The notes beneath the pieces were generated by a model. That model saw only the letters and a program-made list of their open reading frames with translations. It was not told the origin of the DNA and ran no database searches. Shown here piece by piece: positions 14,649 to 59,216 of a stretch of 64,000 bases of DNA (positions are counted from its first letter, which is position 1; every line of letters begins with the position of its first letter). This DNA comes from Synechococcus sp. RSCCF101 (GTDB taxonomy: Bacteria > Cyanobacteriota > Cyanobacteriia > PCC-6307 > Cyanobiaceae), in contig NZ_CP035632.1 in NCBI RefSeq assembly GCF_008807075.1, forward strand, positions 2,914,001 through 2,978,000, written 5' to 3'. The position numbers were made by a program, and so were the translations under genes.

Positions 14649-14675
14649 GGGTCTGTTCCTGTTCCCTACAGACCC
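14649..14675. terminator. Bidirectional hairpin between cysQ and the first pilin cassette
   Basis: Perfect 8-bp stem GGGTCTGT/ACAGACCC (14649-14656 and 14668-14675) with an 11-base loop. It lies 7 bases after the cysQ stop and overlaps the last codons of the convergent pilin gene. There is no long U-run, so factor-independent activity is uncertain. Confidence 0.5.
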
Positions 14676-15175
14676 TCCCTGCCGAGCCGCTCAGCCGTGC
14701 TCCCGTCGGCGATGACCCGGTTCAACGCCTGACCCGGTTGCAGGGATCCATCCAGGCCATAGGAGGGGCCGCAGCGCATCAGCACAGGCTGCTGCCAGAT
14801 CCGGCTGGGGCGGTTGCCGAGGCTGTAGGTGATCGGGCCCTGGCGGGTGTGCAGGTGCAGCACGGGCCGGCGACCGCTCAGCCGGCAGGCCGGCACGGCG
14901 ACCTGTGGGTCGCGCGCTTCGCTCTGGGCCTGGGCCCGGTCGTGGTGGATCAGATCCCGGGTCCGCTCCAGCCACTGGCGCTCGTGCATGGCCGAGAGCA
15001 GCCTCCGGCTGGCTCCGCTCTCCACCAACAGCAGCTGCAGGAAGGCCGCGGCCAGTGCCATGCCCAGAGCCGAGGCGATGAGCAGTTCCGCCAGGGTGAA
15101 GCCGTCCGATGTGCCGGTGAGGCACCGCCTGTGCCCGGCCAACGCTGATCCCCACAACCGCTGCATGGTTCTCAC
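14666..15175 (-). CDS. PilW-like type IV minor pilin
   Basis: 169-residue prepilin. A 25-residue positively charged leader ends in Gly, followed by the mature start FTLAELLIASALGMALAAAF with Glu at position 5, the prepilin peptidase/N-methylase signature. A globular C-terminal domain with two cysteines follows. It is the last gene of a four-gene cassette. Its ATG overlaps the previous stop as ATGA (15172-15175), so the products are made together. The role is inferred: a minor pilin that primes pilus assembly or forms the tip. The specific PilW label rests on position and general form. Confidence 0.7.
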   Translation of the reverse strand: MRTMQRLWGSALAGHRRCLTGTSDGFTLAELLIASALGMALAAAFLQLLLVESGASRRLLSAMHERQWLERTRDLIHHDRAQAQSEARDPQVAVPACRLSGRRPVLHLHTRQGPITYSLGNRPSRIWQQPVLMRCGPSYGLDGSLQPGQALNRVIADGSTAERLGREGL

Positions 15176-15747
15176 GACTCACGGGGCAGGCAGTGGCGGG
15201 CCAGGGGCGGGGCCGCGGCGTCGCCGTGATAGCGACCGGTCCGCACGATCCCGAGCGGCAGGCTCATCACGGCGCAGAGCGGCCGCAGATCGTCACTCCT
15301 GTGCTCCAGCACGGCGGTGCCACCATCGAGCACCAGCCCCTGGCCCGTGAAGCGCAGGCTGCCGGGAAAGCTGTGGCTGAGCCGGATCTCGCTCGCCAGC
15401 GGCCGGCGGCGCAGGGAGGCCAGTGCCTGCTCACACGGATCCAGGCCGGGGCGCCGGGGCTGTGTCCAGCCGCTGGCCTCCAGCTGCAGGCCGCAGGGCC
15501 GGGCCCGCTCACGGGCCTCGCTGCGAGCGAGGCTGAGCCCGGCCAGAACCGTCTGAAGGCCGTGATCGAGCCGTTGCCGGGCCATGGCCCGGCTGCCCTG
15601 GCGAAACAGCAGACCGCTCAGCAGGCCGGCCACCGCCAGCACCACCAGCAGTTCACACAGGCTGAAGCCTTCAGACGGGCCGCTGAAACGGGTGCCGTTG
15701 GGCCGACCAGGGGCCACCGCCTCAGGCCCGGGGGGACGATGGAGCAT
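15172..15747 (-). CDS. GspH/FimT-like minor pilin
   Basis: 191 residues. A long leader of about 27 residues ends in Gly, followed by FSLCELLVVLAVAGLLSGLLF (Glu at +5). The following helix and SLARSEARERARPCGLQL resemble the GspH/FimT block, in which LARSEAI-type sequence follows the pilin helix. The C-terminal domain is compact and has paired cysteines. The start overlaps the end of the previous cassette gene by 26 bases. It is probably a minor pilin that works in the pilus tip; FimT-type pilins bind DNA in some competent bacteria, but that activity cannot be read here. Confidence 0.7.
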   Translation of the reverse strand: MLHRPPGPEAVAPGRPNGTRFSGPSEGFSLCELLVVLAVAGLLSGLLFRQGSRAMARQRLDHGLQTVLAGLSLARSEARERARPCGLQLEASGWTQPRRPGLDPCEQALASLRRRPLASEIRLSHSFPGSLRFTGQGLVLDGGTAVLEHRSDDLRPLCAVMSLPLGIVRTGRYHGDAAAPPLARHCLPRES

Positions 15748-16159
15748 CGCTCTCCTCCGGCTGGTTCACGGGATCGGGTTGACGGCCGCAGCGCCCCTGG
15801 GCGGCCGGATCGAGCAGGCGCCGGCGGCTGCGCCCCGTGTCGGTGGCCTCCAGCTGCATCAGCAGCCTCCGGTCCCCGTCCACGCGTGTGAGGGTCCGCT
15901 GCAGGCCCTCGGGAACGGCCTGGGCCGCGATGCGCCGCTGCAGGGCGATGGTCACCCAGTCGCAGGCGCTGTCGGGCATGGAGGGCAGCGCGGCCATAGC
16001 CGCTTCGGCGGCCCGGAACTGGCTGTCGATGGCGTTCAGCGCCAGGGCGCGTGCCTCGCGGCGGTGCTCACCGGCCGCGGCCAGGCCCATCAGCTGCATC
16101 GAGGCGCTGCTGCTGAGGGTCAGCAGGCTGGCGGCCACCACGCATTCGGCGAGGTTCAC
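15722..16159 (-). CDS. PilV/PilE-like minor pilin lacking an obvious leader
   Basis: About 145 residues from GTG 16159, which overlaps the preceding stop as GTGA. The chain begins MNLAECVVAASLLTLSSSAS, so the hydrophobic pilin helix starts at once. Glu is residue 5 of the primary product, the place it holds in a processed pilin. No charged leader or Gly cleavage site precedes it. The frame is open further upstream, but that part overlaps the previous gene and looks like an out-of-frame shadow (Gly/Ala/Arg-rich). Hydrophilic C-terminal domain with one clear cysteine pair candidate. Second gene of the cassette. Confidence 0.6.
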   Translation of the reverse strand: MNLAECVVAASLLTLSSSASMQLMGLAAAGEHRREARALALNAIDSQFRAAEAAMAALPSMPDSACDWVTIALQRRIAAQAVPEGLQRTLTRVDGDRRLLMQLEATDTGRSRRRLLDPAAQGRCGRQPDPVNQPEESDAPSSPRA

Positions 16160-16695
16160 GCGCCCACCCCCCCCACAGCCTCCAGCTGCAGGCCCGTTGC
16201 TCTCAATGGAGCCGGACCCAGCTGCACCCAGAAGCGGGCCTGCCGTTGCACGCCAGCGCTGCCCGGCCCCGGCAGGCCACTGAGCTGCAGCCGCAGGCGT
16301 GCCCCGGCGGCGGCCGGCACGGGCGTCCACTCCAGCAGCTGGCCGTTGTGGTCCAGCCCCTCCACCCGCTGCAGGGCCGCCAACTGGATGGCGTCGGCGC
16401 AGGGGCGGGAGGCGCCGGCTGACCAGTCGCTGGAGGCCTGATCGATCAGGCAGCCATGGCTGCGGTTGAGTCGGCCCAGCCAGTCCATCGCCGCGCTGCG
16501 GAGCGCATCCTCCTGCTGGCGGCTGCGCCAGCGCGCCACCTCCTGAATCCTGCCCTGGAGCGCGGAGGCCTGAAGGGCCATGCTTCCCAGAAGCATGACC
16601 ATGCAGCCGCTGAGGGCGAGCGGCAGAAGGAAGCCCGCCTCAGTGGCGGGCGGGCCTGCGGAGCGCCGGCTCCGGAGGCGGTGTCTGAGGTCCAT
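16156..16695 (-). CDS. PilX/GspK/HpsA-type pseudopilin
   Basis: 179 residues, first gene of the cassette. The Arg-rich 21-residue leader ends in Gly, followed by FLLPLALSGCMVMLLGSMALQ. The mature start has no Glu at position 5 and has Pro at 4, as in PilX/GspK-like and HpsA-like pseudopilins, which sit at the filament tip. An amphipathic helix with RWRSRQQEDALRSAA follows, then a small beta-rich domain. The ATG (16695-16693) is inside a perfect 12-bp inverted repeat, which probably limits translation. Confidence 0.65.
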   Translation of the reverse strand: MDLRHRLRSRRSAGPPATEAGFLLPLALSGCMVMLLGSMALQASALQGRIQEVARWRSRQQEDALRSAAMDWLGRLNRSHGCLIDQASSDWSAGASRPCADAIQLAALQRVEGLDHNGQLLEWTPVPAAAGARLRLQLSGLPGPGSAGVQRQARFWVQLGPAPLRATGLQLEAVGGVGA

Positions 16696-16722
16696 GGGGG
16701 TCGAGTGGTGCGACCCCCATGG
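16692..16722 (-). promoter_or_regulatory. Hairpin covering the start codon of the first pilin cassette
   Basis: Perfect 12-bp inverted repeat CCATGGGGGTCG/CGACCCCCATGG (16692-16703 and 16711-16722) with a 7-base loop. In the transcript the pilin ATG is in the 3' arm, and the only purine-rich stretch able to act as a ribosome site (GGGGG) is in the 5' arm. It would block initiation when folded. This is inferred from the sequence only. Confidence 0.5.
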
Positions 16723-16730
16723 GATTCCCC
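16715..16730 (-). promoter_or_regulatory. 16-nt element shared with the comEC leader
   Basis: On the coding strand this reads GGGGAATCCCATGGGG and ends 19 nt before the pilin ATG. The comEC leader has GGGGAATCCCCTGGAG (43065-43080), also ending 19 nt before its start: 14 of 16 bases are identical. It may be an operator or an RNA element; it partly overlaps the start-codon hairpin. Confidence 0.35.
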
Positions 16731-16753
16731 CGGATCACCGTCTGGTGATCCGG
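16730..16753 (-). terminator. Hairpin downstream of pnp
   Basis: Perfect 10-bp stem CCGGATCACC/GGTGATCCGG (16730-16739 and 16744-16753) with a 4-base loop, 7 bases after the pnp stop. It has no U-run, as is common for cyanobacterial ends. It would separate pnp from the pilin cassette or act as a 3' stabiliser. Confidence 0.6.
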
Positions 16754-42171: not shown

Positions 42172-43056
42172 ATGCATTTCCAGAACCTGATCGCCACCCT
42201 CAACAGCTTCTGGGCGGAGCGGGGATGCCTGCTCCTGCAGCCGTACGACACGGAGAAGGGGGCGGGAACGATGAGTCCCCACACCGTCCTGCGGGCCCTG
42301 GGCCCCGAGCCCTGGGCCGTGGCCTATCCCGAGCCCTGCCGCCGACCCACCGATGGGCGCTACGGGGACAACCCCAACCGGGCCCAGCACTACTTCCAGT
42401 ACCAGGTGCTGATCAAGCCGTCGCCTGAGGGCATCCAGGAGACCTATCTCGCCTCCCTGGAAGCGCTCGGCATTCATGCGGCCGAGCACGACATCCGCTT
42501 CGTGGAGGACAACTGGGAGTCACCCACTCTCGGAGCCTGGGGTGTGGGCTGGGAGGTGTGGCTCGACGGCATGGAGGTCACGCAGTTCACCTACTTCCAG
42601 CAGTGCGGCGGCATGGATTGCCGGCCCGTGTCGATCGAGATCACCTATGGCCTGGAACGCCTGGCCATGTACCTCCAGAACGTGGAGAGCATCTGGGATC
42701 TCAGCTGGAACGGCAGCTGCCGCTACGGCGATATCTGGCTGCCGTTCGAGAAGGGCCAGTGCCGCTACAACTTCGAGGCCTCCAATCCGGAGCGCCTGAA
42801 GCGTCTGTTCGCGCTCTACGAGGAGGAGGCCACCGATCTGATCGGCCGTGAGCTGCCGGTGCCGGCGCTGGATTTTGTGCTCAAGTGCAGCCACACCTTC
42901 AACCTGCTCGAGGCCCGGGGGGTGATCTCGGTCACCGAACGCACCGCCACGATCGCCCGCATTCGCACCCTGGCCAGGCAGGTGGCCGAAGCCTGGCTGA
43001 GCGAACGCGAAGCGCTCGGTTTTCCACTGCTGAAGCCTGTCCCGGTCGCGCCCTGA
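42172..43056 (+). CDS. glyQ: Glycyl-tRNA synthetase alpha subunit
   Basis: Catalytic alpha subunit of the bacterial alpha2beta2 glycyl-tRNA synthetase; the beta subunit gene glyS is not here. 294 residues. Family blocks include [60 protein letters not shown] and [13 protein letters not shown] strong hairpin follows the stop. Confidence 0.98.
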
Positions 43057-43064
43057 GCCGGTTC

Positions 43065-43080
43065 GGGGAATCCCCTGGAG
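43065..43080 (+). promoter_or_regulatory. 16-nt element shared with pilin cassette 1
   Basis: GGGGAATCCCCTGGAG, ending 19 nt before the comEC GTG. The pilin cassette 1 leader has GGGGAATCCCATGGGG, also 19 nt before its ATG. Here it largely forms the 5' arm of the hairpin at 43067-43098, so its conservation could also reflect RNA folding. Confidence 0.35.
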
Positions 43081-43098
43081 CAACCTCCAGGGGATTCC
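43067..43098 (+). terminator. Strong hairpin between glyQ and comEC, abutting the comEC start
   Basis: Perfect 14-bp stem GGAATCCCCTGGAG/CTCCAGGGGATTCC (43067-43080 and 43085-43098) with loop CAAC. It lies 10 bases after the glyQ stop and ends one base before the comEC GTG. It probably terminates or attenuates glyQ transcripts. It also buries AGGGGA, the only likely comEC ribosome site. Confidence 0.7.
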
Positions 43099-43099
43099 G

Positions 43100-45202
43100 G
43101 TGCTGCTTGCCTTCGTCGGGATCGCCCTTGCCGCTCTGAGCCTGGGTGCGGTGTCGATCCCCGTCTGGCTCCGTCTGGCTGCCGCCGGGCTGCTCGCGAT
43201 GGCGGGCTGGCGGTGCATCGAAGGCGGGGTAGGCCGTCCGCGCCGCTTTCTGGCCGCCCTGGTGATGCCCGCGCTCATGGCCTGGTCGCTCTGGCTGCAG
43301 CCCCGCCCGTCGCTGCTGGACCCCGTCCATCGCATTCCCGCTGGGCAGGAGCGCAGTGCAGCGCTCAGCCTGGTGGGTTCCGTTGCGGAGACTCCCCGCC
43401 CCTGGCGGAGCGGAGAGGGGTGCAGCGCCGTTCTGGCGGTCCGTGGCGGGCGCACGGCCCTCAGCCTCAAGCCCTGCCCGCCCGACCTTCGCGCCGGCTC
43501 CCGCCTCCGCGTGACCGGTGAGCTGCGCCGGCCGCTGCCGGCGGCCCATCCCCTGCTGGATGATCCGGCGGATCGACTGTCCGGCCAGGGGATCTGGACC
43601 CGCATGACCCCGCAGCGGATCGAAGGACTCGGGCAGCGGCCGGCTCCCCTGGCCGCTCTGCGGCTGCGCATCGCCTCGGCACTGATCGGCCGTGGTGGAG
43701 AGGCCTCGGGTGGCCTGCTGGCGGCGCTGGTGCTGGGCGGGGCCGTGGTGCCCCTGCCCGAGGGCCTCACCACCGCGTTCCGGGCGGCCGGGCTCTCGCA
43801 TGCGCTGGCTGCCAGCGGCTTCCACCTTTCGGTGCTCCTCGGCGCCGCCATGGCCCTTGGCCGCCACCTGCCGGTGCTCCCACGACGGCTGACCGCAGCC
43901 GGAACACTGCTGCTCTTCCTGATGCTGGCCGGTCCCCAGCCCTCGGTGGTGCGGGCCGTGCTGATGGGCGGGGCGGCGCTGCTGGCGATGGAGGCCTCCC
44001 GGCGGACCCGGCCCATCGGCGTGCTGATGCTGACGCTGCTCCTGATGGCCCTGGTTCACCCGCCCTGGCTGCGCACGGCCGGTTTTCAGCTCAGTGCAGC
44101 GGCCACAGCGGGCCTGATCTGCAGTGCGGGCCCACTGCAGCGCGTTCTGGCAGGAGATCAGCCCTCCGCCTGGCGGCGCTGGCTCGCACCGGCGGTGGCT
44201 GTGCCGGTGGCCGCCTCCCTCTGGACGCTGCCCCTGCAGCTCTGGCATTTCGGCACCACCCCGCTCTATGCCATTCCGGCCAATCTTCTGGTCACACCCC
44301 TCCTGGCCCCGCTCACGATTGCGGCCGCCGGTCTGGCGCTGGTGGCGCTGGTCGTTCCCCCCCTGCTGGGGCCACTGGCCACGCCTGTGCTCTGGGGAGC
44401 CGCTCTGCTGCGCCACCTGGTGTCGGGGCTGGCCGCGCTGCCGGCCGCACAGCTGCACACGGGCCGTCCTGCATCGCTGCTGGTCGGGTTGCTCGTGATG
44501 GCTCTGATCCCCTGGCTTCTGGAGGGCTTCCGGCGCTGGCGACCCGGGGCGCTGGCGATGCTTGCGGCCGTGGTCCTGGTGCATGCGGGGCTGCTGTGGA
44601 GCGATCAGGTGCTGCTGGTTCATCGCTTCGGCCAGGACTGGCTGCTGGCCCGTCACCACGGCCGTGCCGCCCTCGTGGCCACCACCGCGGACGAACGCAG
44701 CTGTCGGCTGGCCGGCCAGCTCGTTCACGCCCTGGGCCACCAGGCTCTCGACTGGGTCGTGCTGCATGACCCGGTCCCCGCTCCCGACATGGGCTGCTGG
44801 GAAGCGCTGTCCGCCCAGGTGCTGTCGCCGGCTCACGGACGTCGGCTCGGGCCCGGCCAGCGTCTTCACAGTGATGGCCTGGAGTACACGCCGCTCTCGG
44901 CCGCCAGCACGGCTGCCCTGCTGCGGCTGGGAGGCCGTCCCTGGCTGCTGCTGCCCGACCGGCCCGCTCTGCTCAGCATCGCTTCGGCGCAGGCTCCGTC
45001 ACCTCCAGTGGGCGCTCTCGACGGGCTCTGGCTTGGTGCCGCCCCGTCAGTCAGCGAGCTCGCCTGGCTGGACCGGCAGCCCCACCGTCGCCTCTGGCTG
45101 AGTGGTGCTCCGCCCTCGGGCGGGGCGCCGAATCGCCGGCGCGGTGCCCTCGGGGAGGCGGCCCACACCGGCGTGATCGGTTCCCTCATGGCCCGTCTCT
45201 GA
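43100..45202 (+). CDS. comEC: ComEC/Rec2 DNA-uptake channel
   Basis: Inner-membrane channel that passes single-stranded DNA into the cytoplasm during natural transformation. 700 residues. N-terminal helices and an OB-like domain (about 60-170, SLVGSVAETPRP) are followed by the competence domain with about ten helices. Its hallmark is FRAAGLSHALAASGFHLSVL (about 232-251), the family LAxSGxH block. The C-terminal about 170 residues hold the remains of the metallo-beta-lactamase domain (LLVHRFGQDWLLARHHGRAA), but the HxHxDH metal motif is not visible. GTG 43100 abuts a 14-bp hairpin. Confidence 0.92.
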   Translation: MLLAFVGIALAALSLGAVSIPVWLRLAAAGLLAMAGWRCIEGGVGRPRRFLAALVMPALMAWSLWLQPRPSLLDPVHRIPAGQERSAALSLVGSVAETPRPWRSGEGCSAVLAVRGGRTALSLKPCPPDLRAGSRLRVTGELRRPLPAAHPLLDDPADRLSGQGIWTRMTPQRIEGLGQRPAPLAALRLRIASALIGRGGEASGGLLAALVLGGAVVPLPEGLTTAFRAAGLSHALAASGFHLSVLLGAAMALGRHLPVLPRRLTAAGTLLLFLMLAGPQPSVVRAVLMGGAALLAMEASRRTRPIGVLMLTLLLMALVHPPWLRTAGFQLSAAATAGLICSAGPLQRVLAGDQPSAWRRWLAPAVAVPVAASLWTLPLQLWHFGTTPLYAIPANLLVTPLLAPLTIAAAGLALVALVVPPLLGPLATPVLWGAALLRHLVSGLAALPAAQLHTGRPASLLVGLLVMALIPWLLEGFRRWRPGALAMLAAVVLVHAGLLWSDQVLLVHRFGQDWLLARHHGRAALVATTADERSCRLAGQLVHALGHQALDWVVLHDPVPAPDMGCWEALSAQVLSPAHGRRLGPGQRLHSDGLEYTPLSAASTAALLRLGGRPWLLLPDRPALLSIASAQAPSPPVGALDGLWLGAAPSVSELAWLDRQPHRRLWLSGAPPSGGAPNRRRGALGEAAHTGVIGSLMARL

Positions 45203-58985: not shown

Positions 58986-59081
58986 TGACTCGGACCCATG
59001 CGGTTCCGACGCCCAAATCTGGTCAGGACCGGAAGGGAGCAGCCACACGGGATGCTCAGAGCAGGCGTGGACTCCGAGTCA
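58986..59081 (+). ncRNA. ffs: Signal recognition particle 4.5S RNA
   Basis: About 96 nt closed by a perfect 9-bp stem TGACTCGGA/TCCGAGTCA. The middle contains the universally conserved SRP domain IV: GGTCAGGACCGGAAGGGAGC followed by AGCCACA, which binds Ffh. Located between divergent panB and convergent ftsZ. Confidence 0.95.
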
Positions 59082-59178
59082 CCCATTTCACCGGAGCTGC
59101 TGCGTTCAGCGAACAAGCGCCGATCCAGCTAATGGTGCATGGCTCTTCGTTCGCATCACGGTGGACATTGAATTGAAT

Positions 59179-59216
59179 ATTCAGGAGTCAGATCCACAGA
59201 ACTCTGACTCCTGAAT
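59179..59216. terminator. Hairpin terminator downstream of ftsZ (bidirectional)
   Basis: Perfect 14-bp stem ATTCAGGAGTCAGA/TCTGACTCCTGAAT (59179-59192 and 59203-59216) with a 10-base loop, 5 bases after the ftsZ stop. AT-rich sequence lies on its far side. It can serve both ftsZ and the ffs transcript. Confidence 0.75.

Follow-up and report, generated by a model that had tools for sequence, protein, structure and literature searches.

A putative J-Box promoter within the hairpin preceding comEC in Synechococcus sp. RSCCF101, and its counterparts upstream of competence genes in related picocyanobacteria

Start-occluding hairpins act through transcript length, the long mRNA hiding its ribosome site and a short RNA from an internal promoter freeing it. 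The J-Box of Nostoc punctiforme, GGGaAtacT, is described as an extended -10 element; three clusters of the SigJ regulon have it in 93 of their 118 promoter regions, and the -35 region accompanying it is AT-rich, weakly conserved and largely dispensable (PMC6495340). The same paper suggests that SigF may recognise J-Boxes where SigJ is missing and places the transcription start of gvpA 10 bp from the -10 centre; the wording there is 'upstream', which is taken here as a slip for downstream. The term 'come' is not mentioned in its main text, and no report joining a J-Box to comEC or comF was found among the open-licence full texts searched. In S. elongatus, SigF2 is reported to be required for natural transformation and for the dark induction of dprA (PMC7125226), and 14 Prochlorococcus strains are described as having sigma factors of the SigA type only (PMC11119718). 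Strains with pilA3 are reported to carry comEA and comEC as well; in the same source, the marine picocyanobacteria are described as not known for competence and the conditions for it as needing further work (PMC7994388).

Those features of the window, a stretch of 64 kb, that are relevant to the present study are collected in Table 1. The gene comEC follows glyQ, whose stop codon (TGA, 43054-43056) lies 9 nt before a J-Box-like element, and the GTG of comEC (43100-43102) is the first ATG, GTG or TTG of its open frame. An N-terminal AL.ALSLG of the predicted ComEC is common to the window and its relatives of genus g10, in which the first possible start is a TTG at the same place. The space between the two genes is occupied by a hairpin of 14 bp, which the original prediction described as ending one base before the comEC start; its arms, four-base loop and position are all as claimed, with 14 of 14 pairs being of the Watson-Crick type and the single base 43099 separating the stem from the start codon. 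The intergenic region varies among the relatives. In genus g5 (L045, L052, L062, L063) the comEC frame runs on from the glyQ stop and contains no ATG, GTG or TTG for about 60 nt. A small ORF of about 60-75 aa, judged by eye, lies between glyQ and comEC in L014, L044, L077 and others belonging to several genera, and in some of these loci it overlaps the glyQ stop (ATGA).

Table 1. Positions of the comEC and minor-pilin features in the window
Feature	Position	Strand	Remarks
glyQ, glycyl-tRNA synthetase alpha subunit	42172..43056	+	PF02091 470 bits, TIGR00388
J-Box-like extended -10 element GGGAATCCC	43066..43074	+	8/9 to GGGAAYNCT; last conserved T is C
Hairpin, 5' arm	43067..43080	+	GGAATCCCCTGGAG; overlaps J-Box-like element
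Hairpin, loop CAAC	43081..43084	+	predicted transcription start 43081/43082 inside
Hairpin, 3' arm	43085..43098	+	CTCCAGGGGATTCC; holds putative ribosome site AGGGGA 43089-43094
comEC, 700 aa, GTG start	43100..45202	+	PF03772 159 bits, TIGR00360
Hairpin with 10-bp arms	16730..16753	-	between pnp stop and box
Second GGGAATCCC box	16721..16729	-	only other copy in window; first G 34 nt before pilin-like ATG
Hairpin of 12 bp	16692..16722	-	arms 16711-16722 and 16692-16703; 3' arm holds pilin-like start codon
Four consecutive prepilin-like ORFs	14666..16695	-	16695-16156, 16330-15722, 15747-15172, 15175-14666; read as minor-pilin operon

No perfect stem in the window (loops of 3-8 nt considered) is longer than the one before comEC, and the folding z around it is -5.7 and -6.2 for the 40-nt leader. 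A chance hairpin was rejected because the z is -2.7 over 91 nt and because none of six simulated windows with the same dinucleotide make-up contained a perfect stem longer than 12 bp. A repeat family or mobile element was likewise rejected, since the stem core pattern CCCCTNNNGNNNNCNNNAGGGG occurs only once in the 2.98-Mb genome. The Rfam search assigned the hairpin to no family at the gathering score, giving sub-threshold matches only.

The family consensus of the element overlapping the 5' arm, GGGAAYNCT, fits the rule for the J-Box, with its GGG trio and the near-absolute A and T of aAtacT. Both copies in the window, at comEC and at the minor pilins, miss the final T, which is replaced by C; this position is T in 29 of 30 aligned sites, the window being the exception, in an alignment for which the search pattern allowed only C or T. 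No conserved -35 was present at a fixed distance in these 30 sites, and the region before 43066 is GC-rich, so that the AT-rich weak -35 of J-Boxes is missing from the comEC leader. A promoter scan of this leader found no sigma-70-like promoter. As with J-Boxes, the element lies shortly upstream of the gene start, the spacing in the same genome being 34 nt for comEC, 34 nt for the minor pilins and 33 nt for comF. The predicted comEC start, obtained by applying the gvpA spacing of PMC6495340, falls within the hairpin loop.

The occurrence of the box was examined across the family. The gene glyQ was found in 170 of the 201 family genomes searched and 110 loci (30 + 80) were taken, in 104 of which glyQ is visible; comEC lies on the same strand within about 700 nt in 57 of these 104, directly or behind a small gene, and by eye the box GGGGAA(C/T)NCT precedes comEC in both layouts. 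GGGAA(C/T) occurs within 420 nt of the glyQ stop in 42 of the 57 glyQ-comEC loci and continues as NCT in 39 of the 42, the remaining ones being the window, L019 and L072; at glyQ loci lacking comEC it occurs in 4 of 47, with the NCT continuation in none of the four. The possibility that the box is a feature of glyQ was therefore rejected, for it keeps with comEC across the intervening gene and its NCT is not seen at the comEC-less loci. The gene comEC was also sought in 30 genomes where it was unseen beside glyQ, and found in 29, while comF was sought in 91 genomes and found in 62, the best 30 of which were taken as loci. Loci were dropped when the match started after residue 75 (comEC) or 25 (comF), or when the segment was shorter than 90 nt. 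GGGAA(C/T)NCT is present upstream of comEC in 69 of the 86 usable loci out of 94, representing 64 of 80 genomes and 12 of 15 genera (absent in genera g1, that of the window itself, g42 and g59), and upstream of comF in 22 of 30 loci and 8 of 9 genera; of the two controls, neither the pattern in reversed form nor a scan of the other strand gave a match, each yielding 0 of 86 for comEC and 0 of 30 for comF. Among the named records (Synechococcus, Cyanobium, Prochlorococcus and others), some strains of which are also in the set of family genomes, the slightly wider box GGG(A/T)A(C/T)NCT precedes comEC in 51 of 80, with 1 of 80 and 0 of 80 for the controls, and its distance to the first possible start is 29-40 nt in 46 of these 51. 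In the culturable strain Synechococcus WH7803, GGGAACCCT is 35 nt before the comEC ATG and 18 nt past the end of glyQ, and the hairpin has a z of -2.5. At comF of the genome under study the box is perfect and is 33 nt from the start, yet the leader lacks a strong hairpin (z -1.2); retention of the box thus does not require a hairpin.

At the family level the box is well supported by sequence comparison. The original prediction of a separate comEC promoter within the stem is borne out to the extent that the 5' arm is a homologue of a J-Box conserved in the family upstream of comEC and comF, which supports its reading as a putative promoter of the SigJ/SigF type. That the box is active in this particular genome is less certain, as C has replaced T at both of its sites in the window.

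The box was found in none of 19 pilB loci of the family, the stretch scanned reaching from 160 nt ahead of the opening of the frame to 200 nt inside it, and GGGAAYNCT is absent from the 15 family dprA loci (L219-L233); the dprA locus of the genome under study (L227) has GGGAATGCC inside the open frame. Sixteen comEC loci of the class outside the family, two of them cut at a contig or frame end, include one with GGGTATGCT 33 nt before the frame opening (L309) and one with GGGAACCCT 67 nt before it (L321); nothing convincing precedes comEC in the others, and the box is not a general feature of comEC beyond the family. The genome under study contains 25 matches to GGGGAAYNCT against 13 to the reversed pattern, the majority lying inside long open frames. 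A PLD/NucT-like nuclease gene of the same genome (L138, about 2.653 Mb) carries GGGAATCCT 35 nt before its ATG and may therefore also belong to the regulon marked by the box. The 30 pattern matches that were read include a minor-pilin operon (L261), and 40 further matches gave nothing consistent. A gene that appears RecJ-like by eye follows shortly after GGGGGAACACT at L254 (G062). In G046 (L439, L440) similar stretches of the form GGGGGAATCCTGGC...GGCACTTGT recur, with the look of a dispersed repeat.

The 9-mer GGGAATCCC has two copies in the window, both strands counted, 0.87 being expected. The second follows pnp, whose stop is at 16763-16761 on the minus strand, and precedes four ORFs, of which family searches matched the third to GspH and N_methyl and the fourth to N_methyl below the cut-off; the first two are prepilin-like by eye. 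The 12-bp hairpin of this leader starts at the end of the box, and P(unpaired) of the pilin start codon is 0.025 in the read-through RNA against 0.68-0.78 in the predicted J-Box RNA. This pnp-pilin case is one instance, met with after the hypothesis had been formed, when an incidentally noticed hairpin was being checked. A homologous operon in G203, with the first, third and fourth ORFs matched in order (E 1e-6, 2e-23 and 4e-15), is preceded by a box of canonical form, GGGAATCCT, at 31 nt from the ATG, and upstream of it lies a minus-strand ORF that is response-regulator-like by eye, not pnp. With the minor-pilin site, a third component of the machinery for DNA uptake would be connected with the box. 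Elsewhere in the window, at 59179-59216, a 14-bp inverted repeat, ATTCAGGAGTCAGA / TCTGACTCCTGAAT, with a spacer of 10 nt, sits some 100 nt beyond the gene for the small SRP RNA (58987-59083).

A candidate reader of the box is present in the genome: a SigF-type sigma gene (G000:C1:1186225-1186986) has as its best NCBIfam match PRK07408 SigF, at 158 bits and below the cut-off of 261. SigF-type matches with E 2e-16 or better, a threshold chosen after viewing the list, were obtained in 62 of 62 ComF-positive genomes (a partial one only in G166) and in 5 of 29 ComF-negative genomes; weaker matches to other sigma factors occur in all 91. The 24 genomes with neither ComF nor a SigF-type match are all of 2.0 Mb or less and probably constitute one reduced clade, because of which this co-occurrence is weak and non-independent, and may reflect loss in a single small-genome clade.

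Folding was compared between the RNA reading through from glyQ and the RNA predicted to start at the J-Box. The original prediction that the hairpin hides the AGGGGA ribosome site agrees with the computation, P(unpaired) of CAGGGG (43088-43093) being 0.000 in the read-through RNA as against 0.20 in the J-Box RNA, and the accessibility of positions -15 to +3 rises from 0.07-0.10 to 0.27. By computation, the long RNA thus hides the site and the short RNA, itself a predicted form, exposes it more. A ribosome terminating at glyQ would, from its footprint size, reach approximately 43067, the foot of the stem, and opening of the stem by it is therefore not expected.

Taken overall, comEC and comF leaders do not differ in folding (mean z -0.41 for 61 and -0.37 for 20 leaders, respectively). 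The relation of the hairpin to glyQ adjacency was examined in 103 distinct box-bearing comEC leaders obtained from 220 loci, a strong hairpin being defined as one with z below -2.5. Where less than 70 nt separates the box from the end of glyQ, 8 of 19 leaders have a strong hairpin; at larger distances the count is 0 of 34, and it is 3 of 50 where the stretch does not include glyQ (p = 2e-4 by the Mann-Whitney test and 8.5e-5 by the Fisher test, both statistics ignoring phylogeny). The test is not independent, because the idea arose from overlapping leader data. Box-bearing leaders of the loci with the small ORF have no strong hairpin, the relevant count being the above 0 of 34. The eight strong-hairpin leaders belong to about five lineages with arms differing in sequence, namely the window, g10 (G009, G102, G125 and the similar L383), G151, L329 and L380. 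In g10 the 3' arm of the hairpin extends up to the TTG start, in G151 the hairpin is further from the start, and in L380 the box lies inside the end of glyQ. The 5' arm in the L329 clade is formed by the box, GGGAACCCT (arms GAACCCTGGA/TCCAGGGTTC), and the GGAG before the ATG is outside the hairpin; the ribosome site is left uncovered in some relatives (L329, L027). Two comF leaders of g47 (L188, L201) also fold the box into the 5' arm (-19.7 and -16.0 kcal/mol). The common trait is the placement of the -10/start region in the 5' arm, and is neither one sequence nor a constant burial of the ribosome site.

In the explanation that we favour, if with a modest degree of confidence, the promoter of a competence gene is itself part of the RNA hairpin, which would silence read-through from glyQ and leave the J-Box RNA translatable. 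The 5' arm would carry the J-Box, an extended -10 read by a sigma factor of the SigF/SigJ type. With its predicted start point in the loop, the mRNA made from it would lack the 5' arm and have a freer ribosome site. The RNA reading through from glyQ would hold both arms and fold; as it would bury the ribosome site and the start, little ComEC is proposed to arise from housekeeping read-through. We infer the sigma factor reading the box, the start site and the silence of the read-through RNA, the last of these from the folding and the adjacency pattern. Several observations stand against this reading: the final C of both window boxes, the GC-rich sequence ahead of the comEC box, the perfect box with no strong hairpin at comF of the same genome, the overall similarity in folding of comEC and comF leaders, the hairpins that leave the ribosome site uncovered in L329 and L027, and the missing box at the pilB and dprA loci examined. 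In addition, 11 of the 19 leaders directly behind glyQ are devoid of a strong hairpin, and the predicted comEC J-Box RNA still leaves the ribosome site only 20% unpaired.

The hairpin may alternatively mark the 3' end of the glyQ mRNA, its stem blocking exonucleases or delaying the polymerase even though no U-tract follows, and its overlap with the box being incidental. The strong hairpins do cluster directly downstream of housekeeping genes (glyQ and, in the second case, pnp). Cyanobacteria are reported to be without Rho and their transcript ends to be often U-less, the defined U-less ends in Syn being structured in 46% (75/163), yet the same source does not regard structure as the predominant explanation of such ends (PMC13289151). 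The original prediction proposed that the stem could end glyQ transcripts. A GC-rich hairpin, as expected of an intrinsic terminator, is indeed present, but no U-tract follows directly after the stem; GGTGCTGCTT comes next, the terminator scan is empty here, and by eye a U-tract follows none of the hairpins inspected at comEC in relatives. Reading it as a terminator is unsupported because the U-tract is missing; a U-less hairpin could still protect a glyQ 3' end made otherwise. The missing U-tract also counts against a 3'-end role in general, which moreover leaves unexplained both the conservation of the box with comEC and comF and the fact that the 3' arm stops right at the start codon, not only in the window but also in the g10 relatives. 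We consider this role unlikely.

Templated quasi-palindrome mutation can yield perfect stems, and a rather poor prospect is that the box has decayed through its T to C change, that comEC is expressed by read-through only and that the perfect stem is a functionless product of such mutation. The loss of the final T would be accounted for, as would the absence of a strong hairpin from the same 11 leaders; in addition, both arms are, by eye, two matched bases longer than those of the L329 clade, as templated correction could yield. However, decay does not sit well with the identical 9-mer at an identical spacing of 34 nt before the minor pilins of the same genome, with hairpins of differing sequence at comEC in about five lineages or with the perfect box retained at its comF. 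A role of the inverted repeat as an operator in the DNA, centred on the start site and recognised by a dimeric protein that represses competence genes, is highly improbable: the dyad centre does lie near the predicted start, but the arm sequences vary among lineages (window, g10, G151, L329 clade), the arms of the two window sites differ apart from the box, and the comF of the same genome has the same box and no strong dyad.

Extending the promoter-in-hairpin reading to other genes, we tentatively propose, short of calling it probable, a picocyanobacterial competence regulon comprising comEC, comF, the minor pilins and perhaps the NucT-like nuclease and RecJ, under a SigF/J-type sigma factor acting via J-Boxes, in which the promoter tends to form a hairpin directly behind a constantly expressed gene, so that the read-through RNA would be mute and translation confined to RNA from the J-Box. 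The box common to comEC, comF and the minor pilins points to a candidate type of sigma factor for DNA uptake in picocyanobacteria, and the layout, if true, provides a simple means of silencing a gene amid constant transcription.

The likeness of the comEC element to the J-Box promoters of SigJ in Nostoc punctiforme hormogonia lies in the GGG trio and GGGaAtacT, in an extended -10 with a weak -35, and in the presence of a SigF/J-type gene in the genome. The box is found here instead at comEC, comF and the minor pilins and not at the 19 pilB loci, the sigma dependence is putative, and the two window copies differ by the final C and by hairpin folding. The control of competence by SigF2 in S. elongatus PCC 7942 similarly ties a group 3 sigma factor to natural transformation, the difference being that dprA is induced in a SigF2-dependent manner there (PMC7125226), whereas the 15 dprA loci of the window family show no box. 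With intrinsic terminators the window hairpin shares a GC-rich stem after a gene and differs in having no U-tract. Start-occluding hairpins with an internal promoter follow the same logic of long and short RNAs; at comEC, the -10 element itself would be the occluding arm.
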